From contig CAKKQC010000075.1 of assembly GCA_919901855.1 (NCBI GenBank), positions 1 to 40,017 of the forward strand: a stretch of 40,017 bases of DNA. The letters are read 5' to 3'. This DNA comes from a bacterium (GTDB lineage: Bacteria > Oederibacteriota > CAKKQC01). Positions 25,975-37,414 of this stretch are shown piece after piece. Below the pieces are notes generated by a model that worked only from the letters and a program-made list of their open reading frames with translations, was not told where the DNA came from and made no database searches. How positions within the stretch are numbered: the stretch's first letter is position 1; each line of letters begins with the position of its first letter. Made by a program: the position numbers and the translations under genes.

Positions 25975-27186
25975 ATGAGCCTCCCACACGAGGTGCCCTA
26001 CCGGCCCGAGCACGTCGCGATGGCCCGCGAGCTCCTCGAGGAGACGCGGCGCGCGGGCGGCCTCGCCCCCGTCGACCTCGAGCGGTTCTGGGCGGAGGAG
26101 ACACTCGGCCACCGGGACCCGTTCTCGCCGGCGAACCCCCGGGTCCCCTCGTGGCTCAGCCTCAACGATCTCTGCGTCTTCGACGAACTGGGAGTGCCCG
26201 AGGACATGTGGCGCTGGGGCCATGACGAGCCCTGGCACCTGGAACTCGCCCGCGCCTACAACGACCGGGCGGAGAAGATCGTGGGCCGCCGGATCATCCC
26301 CGAGGCCCCCGCCCCCGACCCCGCCACGGTCTACCCGGAGCCGCGCGGCCTGCATGACGTGTTCGAGGCCCGCAACGAGTGGCACGGGCAATCCTGGTGG
26401 CTCCGGCAGTCCGCGCACACCCCCGCGGAGCTGCGCGCCCTCCTCGACCGCGTGGACGGACGGGATCTCCGAAAGGTCATCCTGCCCGAGGGCTGGGAGG
26501 CGGCGAAACAGCGGCTCATGCCGAAGGGAGTCCGCCCGCCCCTCTACCGCTGGCAGCGGGGCCCCGTTACCTTCGCCATGTCCGTCTACGGCGTCGAGAA
26601 CCTGATCGAGCTGATCCTCGAGGACGAGCCGCTCGCGATCCGGTTCCGCGACACGATCCGGCGCGTCATGCTCGGGATCGTGGACCTCCTCGACGCCGAG
26701 GCCGGGTATGGAAAAGGCGGGGCGCCGGGCGGGTTCCAGTTCAACGACGACCAGTGCGCGATGCTGAACCCGGCGATGTACGAGCTGTTCGGCTGGCCCA
26801 TCCTGAAAGCACTCTTCGACCGGCTCTCGCCGAACCCGAAGGATCACCGGGGCCAGCACTCGGACTCGGCGATGGGGCACCTCCTGCCCCTCTTGGGCAA
26901 GCTCGACCTCACGTACGCGAACTTCGGCCCGACCCTGACCGTGACCCGGATCCGCGACCATCTCCCCCACGCCGTCATCCACGGCCAGCTCGCCCCGTAC
27001 ACGTACAGCCGCAACGACGCGGAGGGGATCGTGCTCGAGTGCCTGCGGGACGTGACGATGGCCCGGGAGAAGCGCGGGCTGGTCTTCGAAACCGCCGGAT
27101 CGATCAACGAGGGCACGTCGCTGGCGAGCATGCGGCTGGCGATGGCCGCCCTCGACCGGTTCGGCCGGTTCGGGCGGCAGCTCTAG
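25975..27186 (+). CDS. Uroporphyrinogen decarboxylase-like (UroD/MtaA) family protein
   Basis: A 403-residue product. The second half follows the TIM-barrel pattern of the UroD-like superfamily: RWQRGPVTFAMSVYGVENLIELILEDEPLAIRFRDTIRRVMLGIVDLL, an FNDDQCAMLNP motif, LDLTYANFGPTLTVTRIRDHLPHAVIHGQ, and a C-terminal GLVFETAGSINEGTSLASMRLA like the GCEI/NVGTP-type end of the fold. True HemE is shorter and has an N-terminal RQAGRYLPEY motif, absent here, so this is not the haem enzyme. The superfamily also holds corrinoid:coenzyme methyltransferases (MtaA, CmuA) and catabolic methyltransferases; the substrate cannot be told. No corrinoid protein lies nearby. Convergent with pit. Confidence 0.65.
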   Translation: MSLPHEVPYRPEHVAMARELLEETRRAGGLAPVDLERFWAEETLGHRDPFSPANPRVPSWLSLNDLCVFDELGVPEDMWRWGHDEPWHLELARAYNDRAEKIVGRRIIPEAPAPDPATVYPEPRGLHDVFEARNEWHGQSWWLRQSAHTPAELRALLDRVDGRDLRKVILPEGWEAAKQRLMPKGVRPPLYRWQRGPVTFAMSVYGVENLIELILEDEPLAIRFRDTIRRVMLGIVDLLDAEAGYGKGGAPGGFQFNDDQCAMLNPAMYELFGWPILKALFDRLSPNPKDHRGQHSDSAMGHLLPLLGKLDLTYANFGPTLTVTRIRDHLPHAVIHGQLAPYTYSRNDAEGIVLECLRDVTMAREKRGLVFETAGSINEGTSLASMRLAMAALDRFGRFGRQL

Positions 27187-27187
27187 G

Positions 27188-28195
27188 TCAGCGCCAGCCG
27201 AGCAGAGCGAAGAAATGCCATGAGAGGGCGGCGACGAGCGCGGCCGCGGGTATGGTCAGGACCCACGCCCAGACCAGCGTCCCCGCGATCTGCCACTTGA
27301 CCGCCCGGATCCCCCGGGTGGCCCCGACCCCGATGATCGAGCCCGTGATCGTGTGGGTCGTGCTCACCGGAATCCCGAACCAGGTCGCGCCGTAGAGGCA
27401 CAGGGCCCCGGCGGTCTCCGCCGAGAATCCATGGACGGGCTGGAGGTGGCAGATCTTCTGGCCCATGGTTTTCACGATGCGCCAGCCGCCCATGAGCGTG
27501 CCCAGCCCCATCGCGGCGTGACACGAGAGCACGACCCAGAGGGGGATGTCGGCCTTCTTGTCGAGGATGCCACCCGCGATGAGGACGGCGAGGATGATAC
27601 CCATCGTCTTCTGGGCGTCGTTGCCCCCGTGGCCGAGGCTGTAAGCTGCCGACGAGAGGAGCTGGAGCCGCTTGAACAGCCCGCTGACGCCCGACGGCGT
27701 CGCCCGGCGAAAGACCCAGTACGTGATCACCATGAAGACGAACCCCATCGCCATTCCGAGCACGGGCGCCACGATGATGAACACCGCGATCTTGGTCAGC
27801 CCGGGGACGATGAGCACCCCCCAGCCCGCGTGCGCGACCGCGGCGCCCGCGAACCCGCCGACGAGCGCGTGCGACGAGCTGGTCGGAATCCCGAGCCACC
27901 ACGTGATGAGGTCCCAGACGATCGCGCCGATGAGGCCCGCTGCGAGCACGGCCACCGTGACGGACGAGGGATCCACGACCCCCTTCCCGATCGTGCGCGC
28001 CACGTGGAGCCCGAAGAACAGGAACGCGATGAAGTTGAAGAATGCGGCCCAAACCACGGCCTGCGAGGGTGAGAGAACCCGGGTCGAGACCACGGTCGCG
28101 ATCGAGTTCGCCGAGTCGTGGAACCCGTTGACGAAGTCGAACGCGAGCGCGAGACCGATGATCGCGACCACCACCCACAGCTCCGTCGTCCCCAA
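27188..28195 (-). CDS. pit: Low-affinity inorganic phosphate transporter (PiT family)
   Basis: Ion-coupled symporter for metal-phosphate or phosphate in the inner membrane. A 335-residue product with about ten helices and the two PiT signature repeats: FDFVNGFHDSANSIATVVSTRVL near the N-terminus and LGHGGNDAQKTMGIILAVL in the second half, plus WLGIPTSSSHALVGGFAGAA and GIPVSTTHTITGSIIGVGA. The start is TTG 28195: AAGGAGG lies five bases upstream, and the ATG at 28200 is out of frame. It is the last gene of the phosphate block and has its own promoter with a Pho box-like repeat in front, so it may be induced by phosphate limitation, unusual for a low-affinity carrier. Its stop is two bases from the convergent UroD-like gene. 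Confidence 0.92.
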   Translation of the reverse strand: MGTTELWVVVAIIGLALAFDFVNGFHDSANSIATVVSTRVLSPSQAVVWAAFFNFIAFLFFGLHVARTIGKGVVDPSSVTVAVLAAGLIGAIVWDLITWWLGIPTSSSHALVGGFAGAAVAHAGWGVLIVPGLTKIAVFIIVAPVLGMAMGFVFMVITYWVFRRATPSGVSGLFKRLQLLSSAAYSLGHGGNDAQKTMGIILAVLIAGGILDKKADIPLWVVLSCHAAMGLGTLMGGWRIVKTMGQKICHLQPVHGFSAETAGALCLYGATWFGIPVSTTHTITGSIIGVGATRGIRAVKWQIAGTLVWAWVLTIPAAALVAALSWHFFALLGWR

Positions 28196-28209
28196 TTCAT
28201 CCTCCTTCC

Positions 28210-28223
28210 CCGGTCATGACCGG
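28210..28223 (-). promoter_or_regulatory. 14-bp perfect palindrome in the pit leader
   Basis: CCGGTCATGACCGG, just downstream of the TACAAT box and 14 bases before the TTG start; it would lie at or just after the RNA start. It could be an operator or a leader hairpin next to the AAGGAGG site. Confidence 0.4.
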
Positions 28224-28229
28224 CGACCC

Positions 28230-28257
28230 ATTGTACAGTTGACGTGGGAAGTGTAAA
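28230..28257 (-). promoter_or_regulatory. pit promoter
   Basis: On the minus strand TTTACA (28257-28252), a 16-base spacer, TACAAT (28235-28230). The -35 hexamer is also part of the second half of the Pho box-like repeat, the usual arrangement for PhoB-activated promoters. Confidence 0.55.
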
Positions 28258-28268
28258 GGGGCGTTAAA
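28251..28268 (-). promoter_or_regulatory. Pho box-like direct repeat in front of pit
   Basis: TTTAACG-CCCC-TTTACAC on the minus strand: two 7-base half sites with a 4-base linker, 11-base period as in PhoB sites. It matches the site in front of the porin-pst unit (33984-34001) at 13 of 18 positions and overlaps the phoU stop codon. Confidence 0.55.
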
Positions 28269-28947
28269 GACCTTCTCCCGCTCCCGCCGTTTGGCCGGGA
28301 TGCCGGATGTCCCGGCCCTGGACCATGAAGATGACCTCCTCGGCGATGTTGGTGGCGTGGTCGCCGATCCGCTCGAGATTGCGCGCGATCAGGAGCAGGG
28401 CCACCCCGCCCGGCACGTTCGACACGTCCGCCTGCATCAGCCGGACCAGCTCGTACAGGGACTCCTTCTTGAGCCGATCCTCCTCGTCGTCCCGGCGTAT
28501 GACCGTGTCCGCGAGCGCGGCGTCGCGCCGGGCAAATGCGTCGAGCGCGTCCCGGAGCATGGCGATCGCGAGCTCCGCCATACGCGGCACGTCGAGGAGC
28601 AGGCGGTCTCCGGGCGCCAGGGCCAGCATCGCCTGCGTGTTCTGCGCCACGTTCACGGCCTGGTCGCCCACCCGCTCCAGGTCCGCGTTCATCCGCGACG
28701 CGGCCATGACGAACCGGAGGTCCGACGCCGCCGGCTGGAACCGGGCGATCAACGACAGGATCCGCTCGTCCACCTCCAGGTGCAGGCCGTTCACCTGCTC
28801 TTCGCTTCGGTGGATTTCGGGCAAGCGATCCGACCGACCCTCGACCAGAGCTGCCACGCCGACGCGGATCATCTCCTCCACGAGGCCACCCATGGCGAGC
28901 AGGCGCCGGACCAGCTCGGCCTCGATCTCCTCGACGTGCCGCTCCAT
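28264..28947 (-). CDS. phoU: Phosphate signalling protein PhoU
   Basis: Peripheral cytoplasmic protein that links the Pst transporter to PhoR and keeps the Pho response off when phosphate is ample. A 227-residue product, normal length, all-helical with the two PhoU repeats: an N-terminal RHVEEIEAELVRRLLAMGGLVEEM start and the two metal-binding helices DLERVGDQAVNVAQ and NLERIGDHATNIAEEV (E/DxxxD). ATG 28947 has GGGGAGG six bases upstream. It starts 12 bases after the pstB stop, as in most pst operons. An ending GQTAGAGEGL is uncharacteristic but short. Confidence 0.95.
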   Translation of the reverse strand: MERHVEEIEAELVRRLLAMGGLVEEMIRVGVAALVEGRSDRLPEIHRSEEQVNGLHLEVDERILSLIARFQPAASDLRFVMAASRMNADLERVGDQAVNVAQNTQAMLALAPGDRLLLDVPRMAELAIAMLRDALDAFARRDAALADTVIRRDDEEDRLKKESLYELVRLMQADVSNVPGGVALLLIARNLERIGDHATNIAEEVIFMVQGRDIRHPGQTAGAGEGL

Positions 28948-28959
28948 GATGTCCTCCCC

Positions 28960-29769
28960 TCACCCGAACCGGCCGGTCAGGTACGCCTGCGTGCGCGGAT
29001 CGGCCGGGTTAGTGAAGATGCGGTCCGTGGTCCCGAACTCGACGAGCTCGCCCAGGAGCATGAACCCCGTGAAGTCCGAGACGCGGGCCGCCTGCTGCAT
29101 GTTGTGCGTGACGATCACGATCGTGTATTCGGCCTTGAGCTTGAGCAGGAGCTCCTCGATCCGGGCGGTCGCGATCGGATCGAGGGCCGAGCACGGCTCG
29201 TCGAGGAGGAGCACGCGCGGCCGGACCGCGAGGGCCCTCGCGATGCACAGCCGCTGCTGCTGGCCGCCCGACAGGGCGGTCGCCGGCCCCCGCAGTTTGT
29301 CCTTGACCTCGTCCCAGAGCGCCGCCTGCCGCAGGCTCTCCTCGACCACGCGGATGCGGCTCGCGCGGTCGCCGAGACCGTTCAGGACCAGCCCCGCGGC
29401 CACGTTGTCGAAGATCGACATCGTGGGGAACGGGTTGGCCCGCTGGAAGACCATCCCGACCTCGCGCCGCAGGAGGACGGGATCCAGCCCGGTCGTGTCC
29501 TCGCCGTCGAGGAGGATCCGTCCCTCCATCGTCGCGCCGGGCTGGGTCTCGTGGAGCCGGTTCAGGCACCGGATCAGCGTGGACTTCCCGCATCCGGACG
29601 GCCCGATGATGGCCGTGATCCGCCGGGCCGGGAACGCGAGCGTAACGCCCTTGAGGACCGGGCCGGCCCCGTAGCCCGCCACGAGCCCGACCACCTCCAT
29701 TGCCGGCGGCGACGAGGCGGAGACGTCCGGCGCCGCCTGGTCGGGACGATCGAGCGTGGACTGGTTCAT
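28960..29769 (-). CDS. pstB: Phosphate ABC transporter ATP-binding protein PstB
   Basis: Cytoplasmic ATPase that powers high-affinity phosphate import by PstSCAB. A 269-residue product. Walker A GPSGCGKS (56-63), Q-loop VFQRANPFP (Gln109), signature LSGGQQQR (166-173), Walker [13 protein letters not shown] (187-198) and the switch His in [14 protein letters not shown]. The PstB-typical RANPFPMS-like sequence is present. The first 23 residues (to PPAMEVV) are an extra tail. ATG 29769 overlaps the pstA stop by four bases (ATGA). Confidence 0.96.
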
Positions 29770-30626
29770 GATCCGGTTCCTTCCTGGCGGGGCTGCATGA
29801 GTGCCCGCGCCGCGAGATTGCCGGCGAGCACGACGATGAGGAGCAGGAACGCCGCGGCCCAGGCCTGTCGGTGCCAGTCCTCGTACGGCGAGATCGCGTA
29901 GGAGTAGATGACGAGCGGGAGGGCCGCGATCGGCTGGAGCCATCCCTGGTCCCAGTGCCGGGCGCCGAACGCCGTGAAGACCAGGGGCGCGGTCTCGCCG
30001 GCGACCCGGGATACGGCCAGCAGGCTCCCAGTCATGATCCCGCGCGACGCCGTGGGCAGAACCACGCGCGCGATGACCTTCCAGCGCGGAACCCCGAGCG
30101 CGAGGGCGGCCTCCCGCACGCTGACCGGCACGAGCCGCAGGAACTCCTCGCTCGACCGCAGGACCAGCGGGATCATGATGACGGCCAGCGCGACGCTCCC
30201 CGCGAGCGCGCTGAAGTGCTTGAGGGGCAGGACGACTACCGTGAAGGCGAAGATTCCCGTCACGATGGACGGGATGCCGTTCAGCACGTCGGCGCAGTAC
30301 CGGATCGCGAACCCGAACCGGTTGCTGCCGTATTCCGAAAGATAGGTCGCGCCCAGGACCCCGACCGGGACGCCGAGGACCGCCGCCAGCCCGACGAGCT
30401 TGACCGTGCCCACGATCGCGTGCGCGATCCCGCCTCCGGGCTCCCCGACGGGCCGCGGCAGACGGCTCAGGAAGGCCCAGGTCAGCGACGACACGCCCTT
30501 CCACGTGATGTAGGCGAGTAGGACGAACAGCACCGAGAGCGCGACGGCCGTGCAGACCGCCGCGAGTCCGAACATGACGGCGTTAGTGCGGCGGCGGCGG
30601 GCGAGACCGGCGTCCGGCGGCGTCAT
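29766..30626 (-). CDS. pstA: Phosphate ABC transporter permease PstA
   Basis: Inner-membrane subunit that forms the phosphate channel with PstC. A 286-residue product with six helices: [22 protein letters not shown] first, a periplasmic [27 protein letters not shown] typical of PstA, and the coupling-helix [29 protein letters not shown] (EAA-type motif) before [12 protein letters not shown]. Starts at ATG 30626 in an ATGA overlap with pstC and ends in the same way into pstB, so translation is coupled through the three genes. Confidence 0.95.
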
Positions 30627-31564
30627 GACGCCCTGACCGTCGCCCGGTGGATCATGAGCCGGGCGATCGCGTTCACGACGATCGTGATCCCGAACAGGAC
30701 GAGCCCGATCGCGACCAGCGAGTGCACGTAGAGGTCGGAGGAGGCCTCCGCGAACTCGTTGGCCAGCACCGCCGCCATGCTGTAGCCGGGTTCCAGGAGC
30801 GAGAGCGACACCTTCGGCGTGTTGCCGATGACCATGGTCACGGCCATGGTCTCCCCCAGCGCCCGCCCGAGCGCGAGGAAGACCGCCCCCGTGACCCCGG
30901 ACCGCGCGTACGGGAACACGACCAGGCGGACCACCTCCCACTTCGTCGCGCCGAGCCCCAGCGCGGCCTCCCGCAGGGACCGGGGCACGGTGAGCATGAT
31001 CTCGCGCGTGATGCTCACGATGTACGGCAGGATGATGAACGCGAGCAGGAGGCCCGCGGTCAGCATCCCCACCCCGTAGGGCGCCCCCCGGAAGAAGGGC
31101 AGGAACCCGAGCGTCCGGGCCAGCCACGGCTCCGCCCAGCGGACGAGCGGCACGAGGATGAAGATCCCCATGAGCCCCATGATCACGGTCGGGATCGCGG
31201 CCAGCAGTTCGATCGCGAACGAGGCCGCGTCCGAGAGCCGGCGCGGCGCCACCTCGGCGAGGAACACGGCGGTGCCCAACCCCAGGGGCACCGCAACGCT
31301 CAGGGCGAGCGCCGAAGACACGAGCGTCCCCCAGATGAACGGCCACGCCCCGAAGACCTCGGCCACGGGGTCCCACGTGCTCGTCCAGATGAACGGCAGG
31401 CCGAAGGCCCGCCACGCCAGCCGGGAGTTCACGGCCATCGTCCCGCCCATGGCGACGGCCAGCCCCACGATGACCAGGCCGAAGGCGAGGGTCATCCGCC
31501 GGAACGCGTCGTCGGCCCCCCAGCGGGGACCGGCGAGCGCGAGAACGGACGGCGACATCCTCAT
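30623..31564 (-). CDS. pstC: Phosphate ABC transporter permease PstC
   Basis: Inner-membrane partner of PstA. A 313-residue product. First helix at about residues 24-46, then the PstC-like WTSTWDPVAEVFGAWPFIWGTLVSSALAL, FLAEVAPRRLSDAASFAIELLAAIPTVIMGL and the cytoplasmic coupling loop REAALGLGATKWEVVRLVVFPYARSG followed by GRALGETMAVTMVIGN. ATG 31564 is seven bases after the pstS stop; an ATG two codons later (31558) is also possible. Confidence 0.95.
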   Translation of the reverse strand: MRMSPSVLALAGPRWGADDAFRRMTLAFGLVIVGLAVAMGGTMAVNSRLAWRAFGLPFIWTSTWDPVAEVFGAWPFIWGTLVSSALALSVAVPLGLGTAVFLAEVAPRRLSDAASFAIELLAAIPTVIMGLMGIFILVPLVRWAEPWLARTLGFLPFFRGAPYGVGMLTAGLLLAFIILPYIVSITREIMLTVPRSLREAALGLGATKWEVVRLVVFPYARSGVTGAVFLALGRALGETMAVTMVIGNTPKVSLSLLEPGYSMAAVLANEFAEASSDLYVHSLVAIGLVLFGITIVVNAIARLMIHRATVRAS

Positions 31565-31571
31565 GACCGGT

Positions 31572-32597
31572 CTACCGGATGGTCTCCACGGCCTTCGCCA
31601 CCATGCCGTTCACCGAATCGGGAAGGGGCGCGTAGCCCAGCCCCCCCGCCATCCCCTGCCCGTCCTTGAGCATCCAGCGCAGGAAGCCTTTGAGGATCTC
31701 GCCCTTGTTCCCCGGATTCGCCTGGTAGACCAGCAGCCAGGTATAGGTCGAGATCGGATAGGCGTCGTCGCCGGCCGCGTTCGTGATCGAGACCCGAAAG
31801 TCCCCGGGCATGGAGGAAGCGGTCCCCGCGGCCGCGGCCGTCACCGCGGCCGTGTTCGCCTTCACGAACTTGCCCGCGAGGTTCCGGATCGCCGCGTACG
31901 ATAGATGGTTCTGGTCCGCGTAGATCAGCTCGACGTACCCGATCGCGTACGGGGTCTGCTTGACCAGCCCCGCCACGCCCTCGTTGCCCTTGCCGCCGAG
32001 CCCGACCGGCCAGTTCACGGCCGTGCCCTTGCCGGCGGTCCTGAGCCACGCCGGACTCACCTTCGAAAGGTAGTCGACGAGGCAGAACGTCGTGCCGGAC
32101 CCGTCGGACCGGTGCACGACCGTGATCGGGTTCGCGGGCAGGGCGACCCCCGGGTTCAGCGCCGCGATCGCGGCGTCGTTCCATCCCCGGATCTTCCCTA
32201 GGAAGATGTCCGCGAGCGTGGGCCCGTCGAGATTGAGCGTGTCCACGCCGGGCAGGTTGAACACCACGACGACGGCCCCGAGAACCGTCGGGAGGTGCAG
32301 GATCTTGCCGTCCACGGCGAAGAGCTGGGCGGACGTCATCGGCCCGTCGCTCGCCCCGAAGTCCACGGTCCGGGCCGTGATCTGGCGGATGCCTCCGCCG
32401 GAGCCGATCGATTGGTAGTTGATCCGGACGTCCGGGCGCACCTTCTGGTACTCGTCGAACCACTTGGAGTAGATCGGGTACGGGAACGAGGCCCCCGTAC
32501 CCACGAGCGTCGTGGCCGCCATGGCCGTCCCGCCGGCCGCGACCGCCATGGCGAGCGCGAGCGCCGGGAAGCTGCGAAGCGTCTTCCTGGTTGTCAT
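31572..32597 (-). CDS. pstS: Phosphate ABC transporter substrate-binding protein PstS
   Basis: Periplasmic phosphate-binding protein of the high-affinity system. A 341-residue product with a classic signal peptide ending in GGTAMA at about residue 27. Phosphate-binding loops are visible: GTGASFPYPIYSKWFDEY (33-50), YQSIGSGGGIRQI (61-73), DFGASDGPM (79-87) and VVHRSDGSGTT (160-170), as in PstS of the non-lipoprotein type. The C-terminal part includes YPISTYTWLLVY. ATG 32597 has AAGGAGG five bases upstream. It lies 23 bases after the porin gene and is very probably co-transcribed with it. Confidence 0.96.
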   Translation of the reverse strand: MTTRKTLRSFPALALAMAVAAGGTAMAATTLVGTGASFPYPIYSKWFDEYQKVRPDVRINYQSIGSGGGIRQITARTVDFGASDGPMTSAQLFAVDGKILHLPTVLGAVVVVFNLPGVDTLNLDGPTLADIFLGKIRGWNDAAIAALNPGVALPANPITVVHRSDGSGTTFCLVDYLSKVSPAWLRTAGKGTAVNWPVGLGGKGNEGVAGLVKQTPYAIGYVELIYADQNHLSYAAIRNLAGKFVKANTAAVTAAAAGTASSMPGDFRVSITNAAGDDAYPISTYTWLLVYQANPGNKGEILKGFLRWMLKDGQGMAGGLGYAPLPDSVNGMVAKAVETIR

Positions 32598-32620
32598 GAC
32601 ATCCTCCTTGTCGACACGCA

Positions 32621-33883
32621 TCAGAACTTCACCGTTGCATCCACCTGGATGCGGTTGATCCTGTCGGGCACGTTGATCTTCGCGCCCGTCATGACGTAGC
32701 GCTTGTCGAGCAGGCGCACGTTGAAGACCTTGGCCTGGAAGGTCACGAACCCGTTCGGGGTGTACGCGATCCAGGCGATGTTGCCCTTCCGGTCCAGCCC
32801 GCCGTCCCCGAAGTCGGAGTCGGCGACGTCGGCCACCGTGCAGTCCCACGCGGCGCGCTTGTAGTAGTACGCGACCTCCCACGTCCCCGGCGCACTCGCC
32901 TTCCCGAGCTGCGCCCCGATCTGGTAGCCGCCCGCGGACCGGCCGATGAACGACCCCGGCGGCAGGGCATGCCCCGCCTTGGTCCCGCTCCAGGCGGGGT
33001 CACGGGCCTCGCGGTTCGCGATCACGGTGCCGGCCACCGCGAACGGCAGGGATATTCCGGTCATGGGCACCGGGATCCACGTCGAGACCTGCGCCGTCAG
33101 CTCCGCGACCCCGTAGCCGTCCATCAGGGTCGAGCTCGCGCGCGTGTTCCCGAGCTGGACCGGGCTCTGGTTCAACTGGCCGTCGTTCACGTGGAGCCAC
33201 TTGTGGAAGGCGCCCGCCACGATGAGCCGGGACGCGGCCGGCAGGGGCATCTCGAATCCGACCTGCTCCGAGAGGGTCCAGGGATCGTTCCCGTTGGCCG
33301 ACCATTCGTCGTCCACCATCTGCATCCCGTTGGCAAACACGCGGAGCGAATCGCCGACGACGTAGCTCAGGGACTCCCCGAAGCCCTCGGGGTTGAAATC
33401 GCCGTCCCAGACGATGTCCGAGGAGTAGAGCCGCCAGAGCGGATTGGCCATCCGCCCCGCGCTCAGGGCGATCGTCCCGGCGTCACCGAGCAGGGCCGGG
33501 GACCACGAAATGTAAGCCTGGTCGATCCAGATGGCCTTCTGCCGGCCCAGCCCCGAGAGCGTCTGGTTGGTCGAGACCGCCTCGCCGGTGCCGGAGGCGA
33601 GGCTCGCCACCGCCTTCAGGTCGTCCTTGAGCTTGTAGTCGAGCTTCATGCGCAACCGGTACCGGATCCGGTTCCGGTCCTTCGGGACCTTTCCCGCGAC
33701 GAACCGCGTGGACGAGGGATCGTCCCGGTAGTCGTAATATTCCTCCCGGATACGGATATCCCCGCCGATCGTGAGGGTGTCCACCTGCGTCGACGGCTTC
33801 ACTTCCGGCAGGTCGGGCGCCGCTGCCGCGTTGAGCGGCAGGCAGGCCATCAGGGCCGCCGCCGCGACCATGATCTTCTTCAT
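32621..33883 (-). CDS. Putative phosphate-starvation outer-membrane porin
   Basis: A 420-residue product with a signal peptide (MKKIMVAAAALMACLPLNAAAAP). The mature part has beta-barrel strands of alternating pattern (IGGDIRIREEYYDY, IRYRLRMKLDYKLKDDLKAVASLAS, IDQAYISW, GTIALSAGRMANPLW) and ends in Phe after IQVDATVKF, the usual signal for outer-membrane insertion. This fits the bacterial 'putative porin' family with the opening IRIREEYYDYRDDP. It is the first gene of a unit with pstS, behind a Pho box-like repeat, so it probably lets phosphate or phosphate esters cross the outer membrane; substrate choice is inferred from position. AGGAG lies ten bases before ATG 33883. Confidence 0.85.
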   Translation of the reverse strand: MKKIMVAAAALMACLPLNAAAAPDLPEVKPSTQVDTLTIGGDIRIREEYYDYRDDPSSTRFVAGKVPKDRNRIRYRLRMKLDYKLKDDLKAVASLASGTGEAVSTNQTLSGLGRQKAIWIDQAYISWSPALLGDAGTIALSAGRMANPLWRLYSSDIVWDGDFNPEGFGESLSYVVGDSLRVFANGMQMVDDEWSANGNDPWTLSEQVGFEMPLPAASRLIVAGAFHKWLHVNDGQLNQSPVQLGNTRASSTLMDGYGVAELTAQVSTWIPVPMTGISLPFAVAGTVIANREARDPAWSGTKAGHALPPGSFIGRSAGGYQIGAQLGKASAPGTWEVAYYYKRAAWDCTVADVADSDFGDGGLDRKGNIAWIAYTPNGFVTFQAKVFNVRLLDKRYVMTGAKINVPDRINRIQVDATVKF

Positions 33884-33971
33884 CTCCGCTTGCTCCTTCT
33901 GCCCGGCCCCGTTACCGGGGGTCCTTGGGCCATCTCGTCTTGTCTGTTTCTGGCTCAAGGTTACGGCGGGC

Positions 33972-34001
33972 GTGCAAAGACGGGATGAAGGGGGCGTGAA
34001 A
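33972..34001 (-). promoter_or_regulatory. Pho box-like direct repeat in front of the porin-pst unit
   Basis: On the minus strand 34001-33984 reads TTTCACG-CCCC-CTTCATC, the same 7+4+7 layout as in front of pit, and a third degenerate half site TTTGCAC follows at 33978-33972. It lies in the 148-base gap between phoR and the porin gene, about 100 bases before the porin start. A weak TAACCT follows as possible -10. The leader also holds a small CCCCG-GTAA-CGGGG hairpin near 33909-33922. Confidence 0.55.
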
Positions 34002-34031
34002 CCTTCCGGACGTGGAGAAGAGCTGGCTACT

Positions 34032-35459
34032 TCACGCCTGGACGATCGGCAGTCTGACCCGGAAGGTGCTGCCCTGTCCGACGGTGCTCTCAACCGACGC
34101 TTGTCCACCGTGGGCAAGCGCGACATGGCGTACGATCGAGAGCCCGAGCCCGGTCCCGCCGAGCTCGCGCGACCGCGCCTTGTCGACCCGGTAAAACCGC
34201 TCGAAGATCCGGCCCAGGTGTTCGGGCCCGATGCCGGGGCCGGTGTCGATGACCTCGAGGACGGCCTCGCCCGCCTCCCGCCGGAGGACCACGCGGACCC
34301 GGCCGCCCGCCGGCGTGTACTTGACGGCGTTGTCGAGCAGGTTGTCCGCCACCTGCCGGAGGGCCTCGCGGTCCCCACGCACGGCCAGCGGCTCCGGCGA
34401 GATCGCGGCCTCGAATCCGATCCCCTTCGCCCCGGCCGCCGATTCGAGCGCCCGGACCGAGTCCTGGACGGGGTCCCGGAAGTCCAGGGCCTCCCGCTCC
34501 AGCGCCGCGCCGCCCGACTCGACCCGGGACAGCGCGAGCAGGTCGCCGACGAGCCGGCTCAGCCGCTCGGCCTGATCCCGCACCTTGGCCAGGAACCCCC
34601 GGTGCGTCTCGCGGTCCATGGCCGGATCGTCGATCAGGGTCTCGGCGAGCCCGCGGATAGCGGTCACCGGAGTCTTGAGTTCGTGCGATACGTTCGCGAC
34701 GAAGTCCTGCCGCACGGTCTCGAGCCGGCGAATCGCCTCCATCCGTTCCTCCAGCCGCCCGGTCATCCGCTTGAACGCTGCGGCCAACTGGCCGATCTCG
34801 GCCGGCGCATCGGTCCGGATCTCGCGGTTCGGACCGCCCCCCGCGATCGATTCCGCGGCCTCGGTCAGCGCAGTCAGCGGTCGGGTGACCGACCGGGCAA
34901 AGAGGAAGCCGAGCATGAGCCCGCCCGCCGTCGCGATGAGGACCCCCAGGATCACAAGGGTGCGGACGTGGGCGAGCCGGTCGCGGACAGCGGTCAGCGG
35001 CAGGGCCGCGCGCGCGTATCCGAGTAGACGACCTTTCCTCCCGATCGCCACGGCCACGTACATCATGTCCACGCCCAGAGTGTGGCTCCACCTGGTCGCG
35101 ACGCCCGCGCCCGCCTCGCGCGCCGCCAGGATCTCGGGCCGGGTCCCGTGATTGTCCATCCGCGCGGGTTCCTCCTCGGAGTCCGCGGCCACCACTCCGT
35201 CGGCCCGCACGATCGTGAGCCGGGTCGCCACCTCGGAGCCCAGCTCCCGGATGCGCGCCTCGAGCGCCGGCCCCCGGAAGCCTCCGTGCTCCGCGAGGTC
35301 GCCGAGCAGGACGGCCTTGGCCCGCAGCGACGATTCGAGGTCGTGGCGCGCGTCCCGGTCGAGCCGCCACCCGATCAGGAGTCCGAGCGCGACGGTCGTG
35401 GGCACGATGAGCGCGACGTAGCCCGCGTAAAGCCGCCAGAGCAACCGGGTGCGGAACAA
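34032..35459 (-). CDS. phoR: Phosphate regulon sensor histidine kinase PhoR
   Basis: Inner-membrane kinase that phosphorylates PhoB when phosphate is low. A 475-residue product: helix 1 (12-32), a periplasmic or PAS/Cache-like region of about 130 residues (LTIVRADGVVAADSEEEP), helix 2 (about 166-188), HAMP (190-242), the H box FVANVSHELKTPVTAIRG (His259), the N box LRQVADNLLDNAVKYTP (Asn377), G1 VIDTGPGIG and G2 ELGGTGLGLSIVRHV. An extended periplasmic domain makes it like PhoR/PnpS of Gram-positives rather than E. coli PhoR. The start is TTG 35459, three bases after the phoB stop; this is the only start that includes helix 1 fully. It could be another kinase, but the neighbours support PhoR. 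Confidence 0.9.
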   Translation of the reverse strand: MFRTRLLWRLYAGYVALIVPTTVALGLLIGWRLDRDARHDLESSLRAKAVLLGDLAEHGGFRGPALEARIRELGSEVATRLTIVRADGVVAADSEEEPARMDNHGTRPEILAAREAGAGVATRWSHTLGVDMMYVAVAIGRKGRLLGYARAALPLTAVRDRLAHVRTLVILGVLIATAGGLMLGFLFARSVTRPLTALTEAAESIAGGGPNREIRTDAPAEIGQLAAAFKRMTGRLEERMEAIRRLETVRQDFVANVSHELKTPVTAIRGLAETLIDDPAMDRETHRGFLAKVRDQAERLSRLVGDLLALSRVESGGAALEREALDFRDPVQDSVRALESAAGAKGIGFEAAISPEPLAVRGDREALRQVADNLLDNAVKYTPAGGRVRVVLRREAGEAVLEVIDTGPGIGPEHLGRIFERFYRVDKARSRELGGTGLGLSIVRHVALAHGGQASVESTVGQGSTFRVRLPIVQA

Positions 35460-35462
35460 GGG

Positions 35463-36161
35463 CTAGCTCTCGGCGTCGCGGAACCGGTAACCGACGCCGC
35501 GGATCGTCTCGATCAGCTCGCGATGGTCCCCGAGCTTCTTCCGGACCGCCAGCACGTGGACGTCGATGTTGCGGTCCACGACCACCGCCGACTCCCCGAT
35601 CACGCGGGTCAGGAGCTGGTCGCGCGTGAACACGCGACCCGGATGGGAGGCGAGGAAGTGCAGGAGCCGGAACTCCGTCGCGGTCACGGTGACCGGCTTC
35701 CCGTCCACGAGGAGCTCGTGGCGCGCCGCGTCGACCACGATCCCTTCGCGCACGATCCGCTCGCCCTCGCCGCGCTCCTCCCGCAGGGGCCCCCGGCGCA
35801 GGACCGCCTTCACCCGGGCGAGCAGCTCCTTCGGGCTGAACGGCTTCGTCACGTAATCGTCGGCGCCGACCCCGAGCCCGAGCACGATGTCGGACTCCTC
35901 GCCCTTGGCCGTGACCATCACGATCGGGATCGGCTTGGTGACGGGGTCCTCTTTGAGCCGGCGGCAGATCTCGATCCCGTCGAGCCCGGGGAGCATGAGG
36001 TCGAGGAGGAGGAGGTCGGGGGCCTCGGTGCGGACGACCGCGAGGCCCTCCTCGCCGTCCCGGCTCGTGATGACCTTGTACCCCTCGCGCGCGAGGTTGT
36101 ACCGGATCACCTCGAGGATGTCCGCCTCGTCTTCTATGACCACGATCCGTCCGGCAGCCAT
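35463..36161 (-). CDS. phoB: Phosphate regulon response regulator PhoB
   Basis: OmpR/PhoB-type response regulator. A 232-residue product. The receiver domain has the acidic pair Glu10/Asp11, the phosphorylated Asp54 in LLLDLMLPG, Thr84 and Lys107 (DDYVTKPFSPKELLARV). The C-terminal winged helix has TATEFRLLHFLASHPGRVFTRDQLL and the wing DRNIDVHVLAVRKKLG...ETIRGVGYRF, all PhoB-like. It is upstream of phoR and downstream of cfa in the same direction; TAGGCT lies seven bases before the ATG, giving a likely leaderless start. No Pho box-like repeat is seen in front of it. Confidence 0.93.
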   Translation of the reverse strand: MAAGRIVVIEDEADILEVIRYNLAREGYKVITSRDGEEGLAVVRTEAPDLLLLDLMLPGLDGIEICRRLKEDPVTKPIPIVMVTAKGEESDIVLGLGVGADDYVTKPFSPKELLARVKAVLRRGPLREERGEGERIVREGIVVDAARHELLVDGKPVTVTATEFRLLHFLASHPGRVFTRDQLLTRVIGESAVVVDRNIDVHVLAVRKKLGDHRELIETIRGVGYRFRDAES

Positions 36162-36168
36162 GGACTTC

Positions 36169-36174
36169 AGCCTA
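36169..36174 (-). promoter_or_regulatory. TAGGCT -10-like box of phoB
   Basis: TAGGCT on the minus strand with a seven-base gap to ATG 36161, within the 29-base gap after cfa. The match to consensus is weak and the phoB gene may instead be read from the cfa promoter. Confidence 0.3.
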
Positions 36175-36190
36175 CACCCTCGGAGCGCGG

Positions 36191-37414
36191 CTAGGCCCGG
36201 TACAGGTAGTCGCGCGTGAGGGGCCGGACGTTGTCGATGCCCGGCGTGGCCACGACCTGGAAGAGCTCGTTGTCGGCGTGGGCCATCATCGCGATTCCGT
36301 TTACCAGGTAGAGCCGGAACATCCGGACGAACGGGTCGCCGTACTGGGCCCGGAACTCGTCCGCGTGGGCCTCGAAATCCGCGGCCCAGCGCCGGCACGT
36401 GAGCGAGTAGTGCAGCCGCAGGTTCTCGACGTCCTGGACGCGCATCCCCTGCTTCTCCAGGCACGTCGCGATCTCGACCAGCGTGGCCGTATAGACGCCC
36501 GGGAAGATGTACTTGTTCCCGAACGCGAGCGAGATGCCCGGACGCTGCTTCCCGATCGTGTGCAGGACGAACGTGCCCTTGGGGTTCAACGACTTCTTCA
36601 CGACGCCGAAGAACCGGTCGTGCCACTTCTTGCCCACGTGCTCGAGACAGCCCACGGAAACGACCTTGTCGAAGACCTTGTTCCATTTCTCGATGTCCTG
36701 CCAGTGGCAGTGCTCGACATGGATCTTGTCCCCGAGCCCGGCCTCCTTGATCCGCAGATTCCCGAACGCGGCCTGCTCCTTGGACAGCGTCACGCCCACG
36801 CCCGAGATGCCGTGATGCTGGGCCGCCCAGATGAGCAGGCCGCCCCAACCGCACCCGATGTCCAGGAGGGTCTCGCCGGGCTTGAGCAGGGCCTTCCGGC
36901 AGACGTGCTCCCGCTTCTGCTCCTGCGCGGCATCGATGGAGTCGTCCGGCGTCTTGAAGTAGCCGCAGGAGTAGAGCACGTCCTTGTCGAGCCACTTGGC
37001 GTAGAAATCGTTCCCGAGGTCGTACGGTTCGGAGATGTACCGTTTGTCGGTCTCGTACGTGTGCGGCTGGTAGAGGGCCTGCCAGAAGACCCGGAGGTAG
37101 CTGGGCAGGTGCCGGAGGATCATCGTCGGCTGGCCGGAGACCCGTCGAAGTTCGGATTCGAGGTTCGAGGTCAGGGCCATCATCAGGAAGTCGAGCAGTT
37201 CCCCCTCGATGTCGAGGGCCCCGTACATGTACGCCTCGCCGAACCCGAGGTCGACGTTGACCATGATCGCACGCATTGCGGCCTCGGTCCGGAGGACGAG
37301 CGTGAATTTCGGGGTGCCCTCGCCGCCGTAAGCGACCGTGGACCCGTCGGGATACCGGACGGCGAATGGGGTGCCTCTCACCCCGGACAGGATGCTGTGG
37401 TAGAGCTTCTTCAT
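36191..37414 (-). CDS. cfa: Cyclopropane-fatty-acyl-phospholipid synthase family methyltransferase
   Basis: SAM-dependent methylation of unsaturated acyl chains in membrane phospholipids. A 407-residue product, normal length. An N-terminal domain (to about residue 125) is followed by DLGNDFYAKWLDKDVLYSCGYF (132-153), which is the family hallmark, then the SAM motif LLDIGCGWGGLLIWAAQHH (183-201), GVTLSKEQ, VSVGCLEHVG and the C-terminal LRLHYSLTCRRWAADFE. Cfa, mycolic acid and tuberculostearic-type methyltransferases share this, so the product could be cyclopropane or a branched chain. TATGAT lies 11 bases before ATG 37414. It is the first gene of the block that leads into phoB, but a regulatory link to phosphate is not shown. 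Confidence 0.9.
   Translation of the reverse strand: MKKLYHSILSGVRGTPFAVRYPDGSTVAYGGEGTPKFTLVLRTEAAMRAIMVNVDLGFGEAYMYGALDIEGELLDFLMMALTSNLESELRRVSGQPTMILRHLPSYLRVFWQALYQPHTYETDKRYISEPYDLGNDFYAKWLDKDVLYSCGYFKTPDDSIDAAQEQKREHVCRKALLKPGETLLDIGCGWGGLLIWAAQHHGISGVGVTLSKEQAAFGNLRIKEAGLGDKIHVEHCHWQDIEKWNKVFDKVVSVGCLEHVGKKWHDRFFGVVKKSLNPKGTFVLHTIGKQRPGISLAFGNKYIFPGVYTATLVEIATCLEKQGMRVQDVENLRLHYSLTCRRWAADFEAHADEFRAQYGDPFVRMFRLYLVNGIAMMAHADNELFQVVATPGIDNVRPLTRDYLYRA

Follow-up and report, generated by a model that had tools for sequence, protein, structure and literature searches.

The control site in front of the porin-pst-phoU unit of this bacterium is, judged by its sequence, a genuine PhoB-type operator of the ordinary kind. 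It is probable, in our view, that this unit is activated by PhoB at positions 34001–33969 and that the similar 18 bases in front of pit, which consist of the end of phoU and the -35 element of pit itself, are not a second operator. Both sites are located in the window, i.e. the whole stretch of 40,017 nucleotides that was analysed, where the genes phoB, phoR, porin, pstS, pstC, pstA, pstB, phoU and pit follow each other in this order on the minus strand. The genes and sites of this region are as follows:

35463–36161, minus strand: PhoB-like response regulator; best model TIGR02154, under its cut-off
34032–35459, minus strand: PhoR/PnpS-like sensor kinase, below the equivalog cut-offs
33969–34001, minus strand: predicted Pho box for the porin-pst-phoU genes, made up of three direct repeats of 11 bases, TTTCACGCCCC CTTCATCCCGT CTTTGCACGCC
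33958–33963, minus strand: putative -10 hexamer TAACCT, 10 bases past the third 6-base unit, with TAGGCT at the equivalent place in the sister genome
32621–33883, minus strand: outer-membrane porin (Porin_5; Pfam PF16930, E 3.4e-33)
31572–32600, minus strand: pstS (TIGR00975, above cut-off)
30623–31564, minus strand: pstC (TIGR02138, above cut-off)
29766–30626, minus strand: pstA (TIGR00974, above cut-off)
28960–29769, minus strand: pstB (TIGR00972, above cut-off)
28264–28947, minus strand: phoU (TIGR02135, above cut-off), TAA stop at 28266–28264
28251–28268, minus strand: claimed pit Pho box; the unit TTTAAC (28268–28263) lies over the phoU stop and the second half is the pit -35 region
28230–28257, minus strand: pit promoter of the sigma-70 type, TTTACA-16-TACAAT, the only promoter-like site in 27100–36400
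27188–28195, minus strand: pit, low-affinity phosphate transporter (PHO4 family; PF01384, E 9e-96), TTG start

The operator of the porin-pst-phoU unit

In the window, the box TTTCACGCCCC CTTCATCCCGT CTTTGCACGCC keeps the 11-base period and contains two strict units of the form NKTMAY and a degenerate third one (CTTTGCACGCC), followed by CGCCG TAACCT. In the sister genome (G001), the one further genome of the class that was compared, the box ATTCACCCGCC CTTCATCGGGC CTTCATGGAGC has three strict units and is followed by CGCCG TAGGCT. The repeats in these two genomes point to an operator of three units, of which the sequence-only reading had seen the first two. In both genomes 10 bases separate the third 6-base unit from the -10-like hexamer, and the same gap between the last unit and TAGAAC or TAAAAC is common among pst promoters, many of them acidobacterial. 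The box thus lies upstream of the -10 in the place of a -35 element, TAACCT itself being a weak match, and it is conserved in the orthologous promoters of G001 and of the Elusimicrobia. When a PhoB matrix was built from the Pho boxes of other genomes, with the window left out, the porin site ranked first of the 80,000 positions in the window, with 14.1 bits (p = 0.0014 by shuffling). The earlier proposal of a PhoB-type operator before the porin-pst unit is borne out by this top rank, by the conservation in G001 and by the grammar common to pst promoters, which is described below.

To define this grammar, tandem NKTMAY units with 11-base spacing were searched in the 260 bases before pst (or before a porin ahead of pst) in 83 loci, drawn from 80 PstS loci of named genomes and from loci belonging to the phylum. 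At least two consecutive units were present in 65 of the 83 pst promoters, compared with a shuffle expectation of 0.55; the pattern was chosen after some of the promoters had been viewed, but the excess is far larger than this freedom allows. As these promoters come from several phyla, the grammar is not specific to the lineage, as had been suggested for the box. It spans the pst promoters of the Elusimicrobia (CGTCAC/CGTCAC, then GTTGAC), the Acidobacteria (often four units, ATTCAT, ATTCAC, TGTAAC and TGTAAC), the Verrucomicrobia (TGTCAC/CGTAAC) and the class to which the window belongs.

The PHO box is the direct-repeat operator of PhoB/PhoP, with the repeat CTGTCAT in E. coli and GTTCACC in Streptomyces (PMC4415409). 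The box in the window resembles it in having 11-base direct repeats before a pstS-type operon with an adjoining PhoB/PhoR pair, and its TTCAY core is similar to the Streptomyces GTTCACC. However, it differs in having TTCAY instead of GTCAY, three units, GC-rich spacers and a PhoB helix without Arg201. Concerning the definition of the box across phyla, the literature search yielded general reviews only. The porin-pst loci of the Elusimicrobia (L031–L036, L061, L071) share with the window the gene order porin-pstSCAB and three repeats with 11-base spacing, whereas their units are CGTCAC/CGTCAT with GTTGAC/GTTTAC as the third.

It was also observed that PstS from these Elusimicrobia loci is about 62–73% similar to that of the window, while for PhoB the similarity is only 43–46%. 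There are hints in these sequences that the transport unit was transferred between lineages.

The sequence-only reading had put forward TTTMACGCCCC-N-TTM as the operator consensus and expected it before phosphatases and other Pho genes. In the window's own genome (G000, 4.68 Mb), exact matches to TTTMACGCCCCNTTM occur only at the pit and porin-pst sites, and allowing two mismatches or fewer gives 39 matches, compared with 35 when the pattern is reversed as a control, i.e. no enrichment. None of the ten inexact matches that were inspected precedes an evident Pho gene; the majority fall within coding sequence, and those between genes (e.g. L006) have no evident phosphate-linked gene downstream. 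No Pho box is visible by eye upstream of the two PhoA-type alkaline phosphatase genes (G000:C6:344668 and C6:54862), a strict box is not found before phoB, and PhoD was not found in G000 or G001. A role of this pattern as the consensus of the regulon is not supported.

A better statement of the operator, on present sequences, is TTCAY-N6-TTCAY. The looser pattern TTMAY-N6-TTMAY gave eight matches in G000 (one in the control) and 16 in G001 (six in the control), among which the porin-pst promoter is the only one before an evident Pho operon. Most of the others fall within genes or lie antisense across ATGAAN start codons; the few intergenic ones in G000 and G001, whose adjoining genes were identified no further, do not precede an evident Pho gene. 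The looser pattern was rejected on the basis of these other matches. For this GC-rich, uncultured lineage, TTCAY with an 11-base period provides a usable operator definition, in which the CCCC spacer is not required.

The 18 bases in front of pit

The two 18-mers compared in the sequence-only reading, TTTAACGCCCCTTTACAC before pit (28268–28251, minus strand) and TTTCACGCCCCCTTCATC before the porin-pst unit (34001–33984, minus strand), are both present and do agree at 13 of 18 bases. The identity is unevenly distributed, with 10 of 11 in the first repeat and spacer but 3 of 7 in the last seven bases. Its significance depends upon the null that is chosen: when the porin site was fixed beforehand and the 105 nt upstream of pit were shuffled 5000 times, 13 of the shuffles attained 13/18, whereas about 27% of the shuffles give at least this value when the best pair is sought across both upstream regions, as is done by eye. 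The 18-mer before pit was also correctly described as covering the -35 hexamer, TTTACA (28257–28252), which lies 16 bases from TACAAT (28235–28230).

With the independent matrix in the 11-base register, the pit site ranked 11th of the 80,000 positions (3.9 bits, shuffle p = 0.054), a background score amid the noise of coding sequence. The TAA stop of phoU (28264–28266) falls within the first unit of the claimed box. This unit, TTTAAC, is a perfect Pho unit, but the second, TTTACA, breaks the near-invariant A and C/T (Y) positions, so that no NKTMAY pair with 11-base spacing exists here and only a 10-base-spaced variant with one mismatch fits the unit pattern. When spacings of 10–12 bases are allowed, a choice made post hoc, TTTAAC-GCCC-CTTTAC scores 13.1 (p = 0.007). 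TTTAAC ends 27 bases and CTTTAC 17 bases before TACAAT, neither of which is the 10 or 21 bases of the activation phase.

In G001 and in most of the relatives seen, pit adjoins an upstream DUF47 gene. In G000, pit sits behind phoU without DUF47, and an orphan DUF47 is present on another contig; hence, pit has been rearranged to its place behind phoU. From its -35 through the -10 to an ATG, its promoter can be aligned with that of DUF47-pit in G001 (TTTACACTTCCCACGTCAACTGTACAATGGGTCGCCGGTCATG vs TTGACATCCGACCTCCACCCGCCCACAATGGGCGCCGTCATG). The alignment score of 32 was attained by 0.17% of shuffles (p about 0.002) and by 90 of 10,806 windows of real sequence, a count that includes those over both promoters themselves; among the 26 gene upstream regions of the window, that of pit alone attains it. 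This homology was spotted after the fact and has approximately 45 bases of support. A search of the G001 promoter revealed no Pho unit pair, and such a pair is also absent from the promoter of the G000 orphan DUF47. Due to its alignment with a promoter that lacks the Pho pair, the second half of the claimed box is best read as an inherited pit -35. The background matrix score and the likeness to a promoter free of Pho boxes argue against an equivalent copy of the box at pit; the look-alike is most likely made up of the phoU end and an ordinary promoter element, and as such it is unsuitable for defining the operator of the lineage.

Two further features of the pit leader were considered. A perfect 14-base palindrome, CCGGTCATGACCGG (28210–28223), lies between the -10 and the ribosome binding site and could be a repressor operator or due to chance. 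A hairpin hiding the ribosome binding site was discounted, as the folding of the leader is unexceptional (z = 0.61). Elsewhere in G000, a DUF47/PhoU_div gene located apart from pit (G000:C79:22269–22865, L206) has the promoter TTGACA-17-CACAAT about 8 bases before its ATG, and because of this short distance its transcript is possibly leaderless.

The recognition helix of PhoB

The recognition helix of PhoB in the window and in G001 is DRNIDVHVLAVRKKL or near it. In an alignment with E. coli PhoB, which supplies the numbering of positions 194, 200 and 201, Thr194 is replaced by Asn, Arg200 by Leu and Arg201 by Ala. The boxes are of the type TTCAY in the window's class and GTCAY or GTAAC in most of the Arg201 lineages sampled, and L109, with His201, likewise has units of the TT type. 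In the complex of E. coli PhoB with DNA, Arg201 is hydrogen-bonded specifically to a guanine (PMC3973317). Pairing of the loss of Arg201 with a TTCAY operator is a lead rather than a result, since exceptions occur on both sides: L086 has Arg with TT units and L050 has Asn with a GT unit. The lead concerns a possible pairing of residue and operator at Arg201 that is testable. In the distant family f5 of the same phylum the PhoBs have Gly at 201; a switched operator in this family was considered and rejected, as strict 11-base pairs were lacking before porin and phoB in the loci checked, the sole exception being an AT-rich match before the L164 porin.

Regulation of pit and alternative explanations

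According to the explanation that we favour, phosphate starvation would lead phosphorylated PhoB to turn on the porin-pst-phoU operon. PhoB would bind head-to-tail on the NTTCAY direct repeats, spaced every 11 bases, and contact RNA polymerase at a promoter whose -10 (TAACCT) is weak and which lacks a good -35. The 18 bases ahead of pit would consist of the last phoU codons beside the -35 of pit's own near-consensus promoter, which was apparently retained from an ancestral DUF47-pit operon through the rearrangement behind phoU. pit would be expressed from this promoter and probably also by read-through from the PhoB-driven operon, as no terminator-like site is predicted in the 68-base gap between phoU and pit. 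Read-through would also be the simplest route by which pit could share the control of pst.

Independent of the 18-mer, control of pit by PhoB is plausible a priori, because strict Pho pairs occur in 10 of 34 DUF47-pit operons of relatives, compared with 0.55 expected. Several of these pairs overlap the promoter or follow it (L098, L129), which is consistent with the orfA-pit operon of S. meliloti, where pit is repressed on Pi starvation (PMC3131613). According to reviews, the regulation of pit differs among species (PMC4415409), and the PhoP of S. coelicolor binds upstream of pitH2 but not of pap-pitH1 (PMC7866108). G001 and most relatives resemble the S. meliloti orfA(pap)-pit and the Streptomyces pap-pitH1 system, the latter without a PHO box, in having DUF47/pap before pit, and variable pit regulation is a further point in common; the window differs from them in that its pit follows phoU and lacks DUF47. 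Thus, the earlier implication that pit is PhoB-controlled may hold, through read-through from the pst operon or in view of the boxes in the relatives' DUF47-pit promoters, but it is not demonstrated by the 18-mer.

Several other explanations of the two sites were weighed. The pit site could be a genuine, weak PhoB operator at which PhoB, bound to TTTAAC and the overlapping -35 at a spacing of 10 or 11 bases, blocks RNA polymerase so that starvation represses pit. Repression would be expected of any PhoB bound here, since the site is out of the activation phase (its units lie 27 and 17 bases from the -10, in contrast to the 10 bases of the porin promoters of the class) and covers the -35. The perfect TTTAAC, the p value of 0.007 with flexible spacing, the placement of the Pho pairs in L098 and L129 and the S. 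meliloti precedent all agree with it. However, the 11-base register is poor, the stop codon of phoU lies within the first unit, and the sister DUF47-pit and G000 orphan DUF47 promoters have no Pho pair, and we regard such repression as rather unlikely. A more elaborate scenario, in which PhoB of the class lost the guanine-reading Arg201 (now Ala, with Leu for Arg200), the operator changed from GTCAY to TTCAY and pit, once separated from DUF47 and placed behind phoU, acquired from the phoU stop codon a half-operator through which PhoB damps its promoter, is less probable again.

The proposal of the sequence-only reading, that the pit site is an equivalent Pho box activating pit alongside pst, draws upon the 13/18 identity and the 7+4+7 layout. 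Against it are the weak second unit, the wrong phase to the -10, near-consensus -35 and -10 hexamers that should need no activator and a consensus that is unenriched in the genome, and it is accordingly judged very unlikely. A further possibility, that the two sites are chance matches in GC-rich DNA and not PhoB operators at all, would agree with the presence of just two exact matches in the genome and the lack of a regulon-wide pattern; but the porin site is top-ranked, is conserved in G001 and follows the grammar of 65/83 pst promoters, which makes this possibility hardly credible.

In two of the Elusimicrobia loci (L035, L061), a CGTCACGCGTTCGTCAY box nearly identical to that of the pst promoter was found between DUF47-pit and phoB, ahead of DUF47-pit and directed at it.
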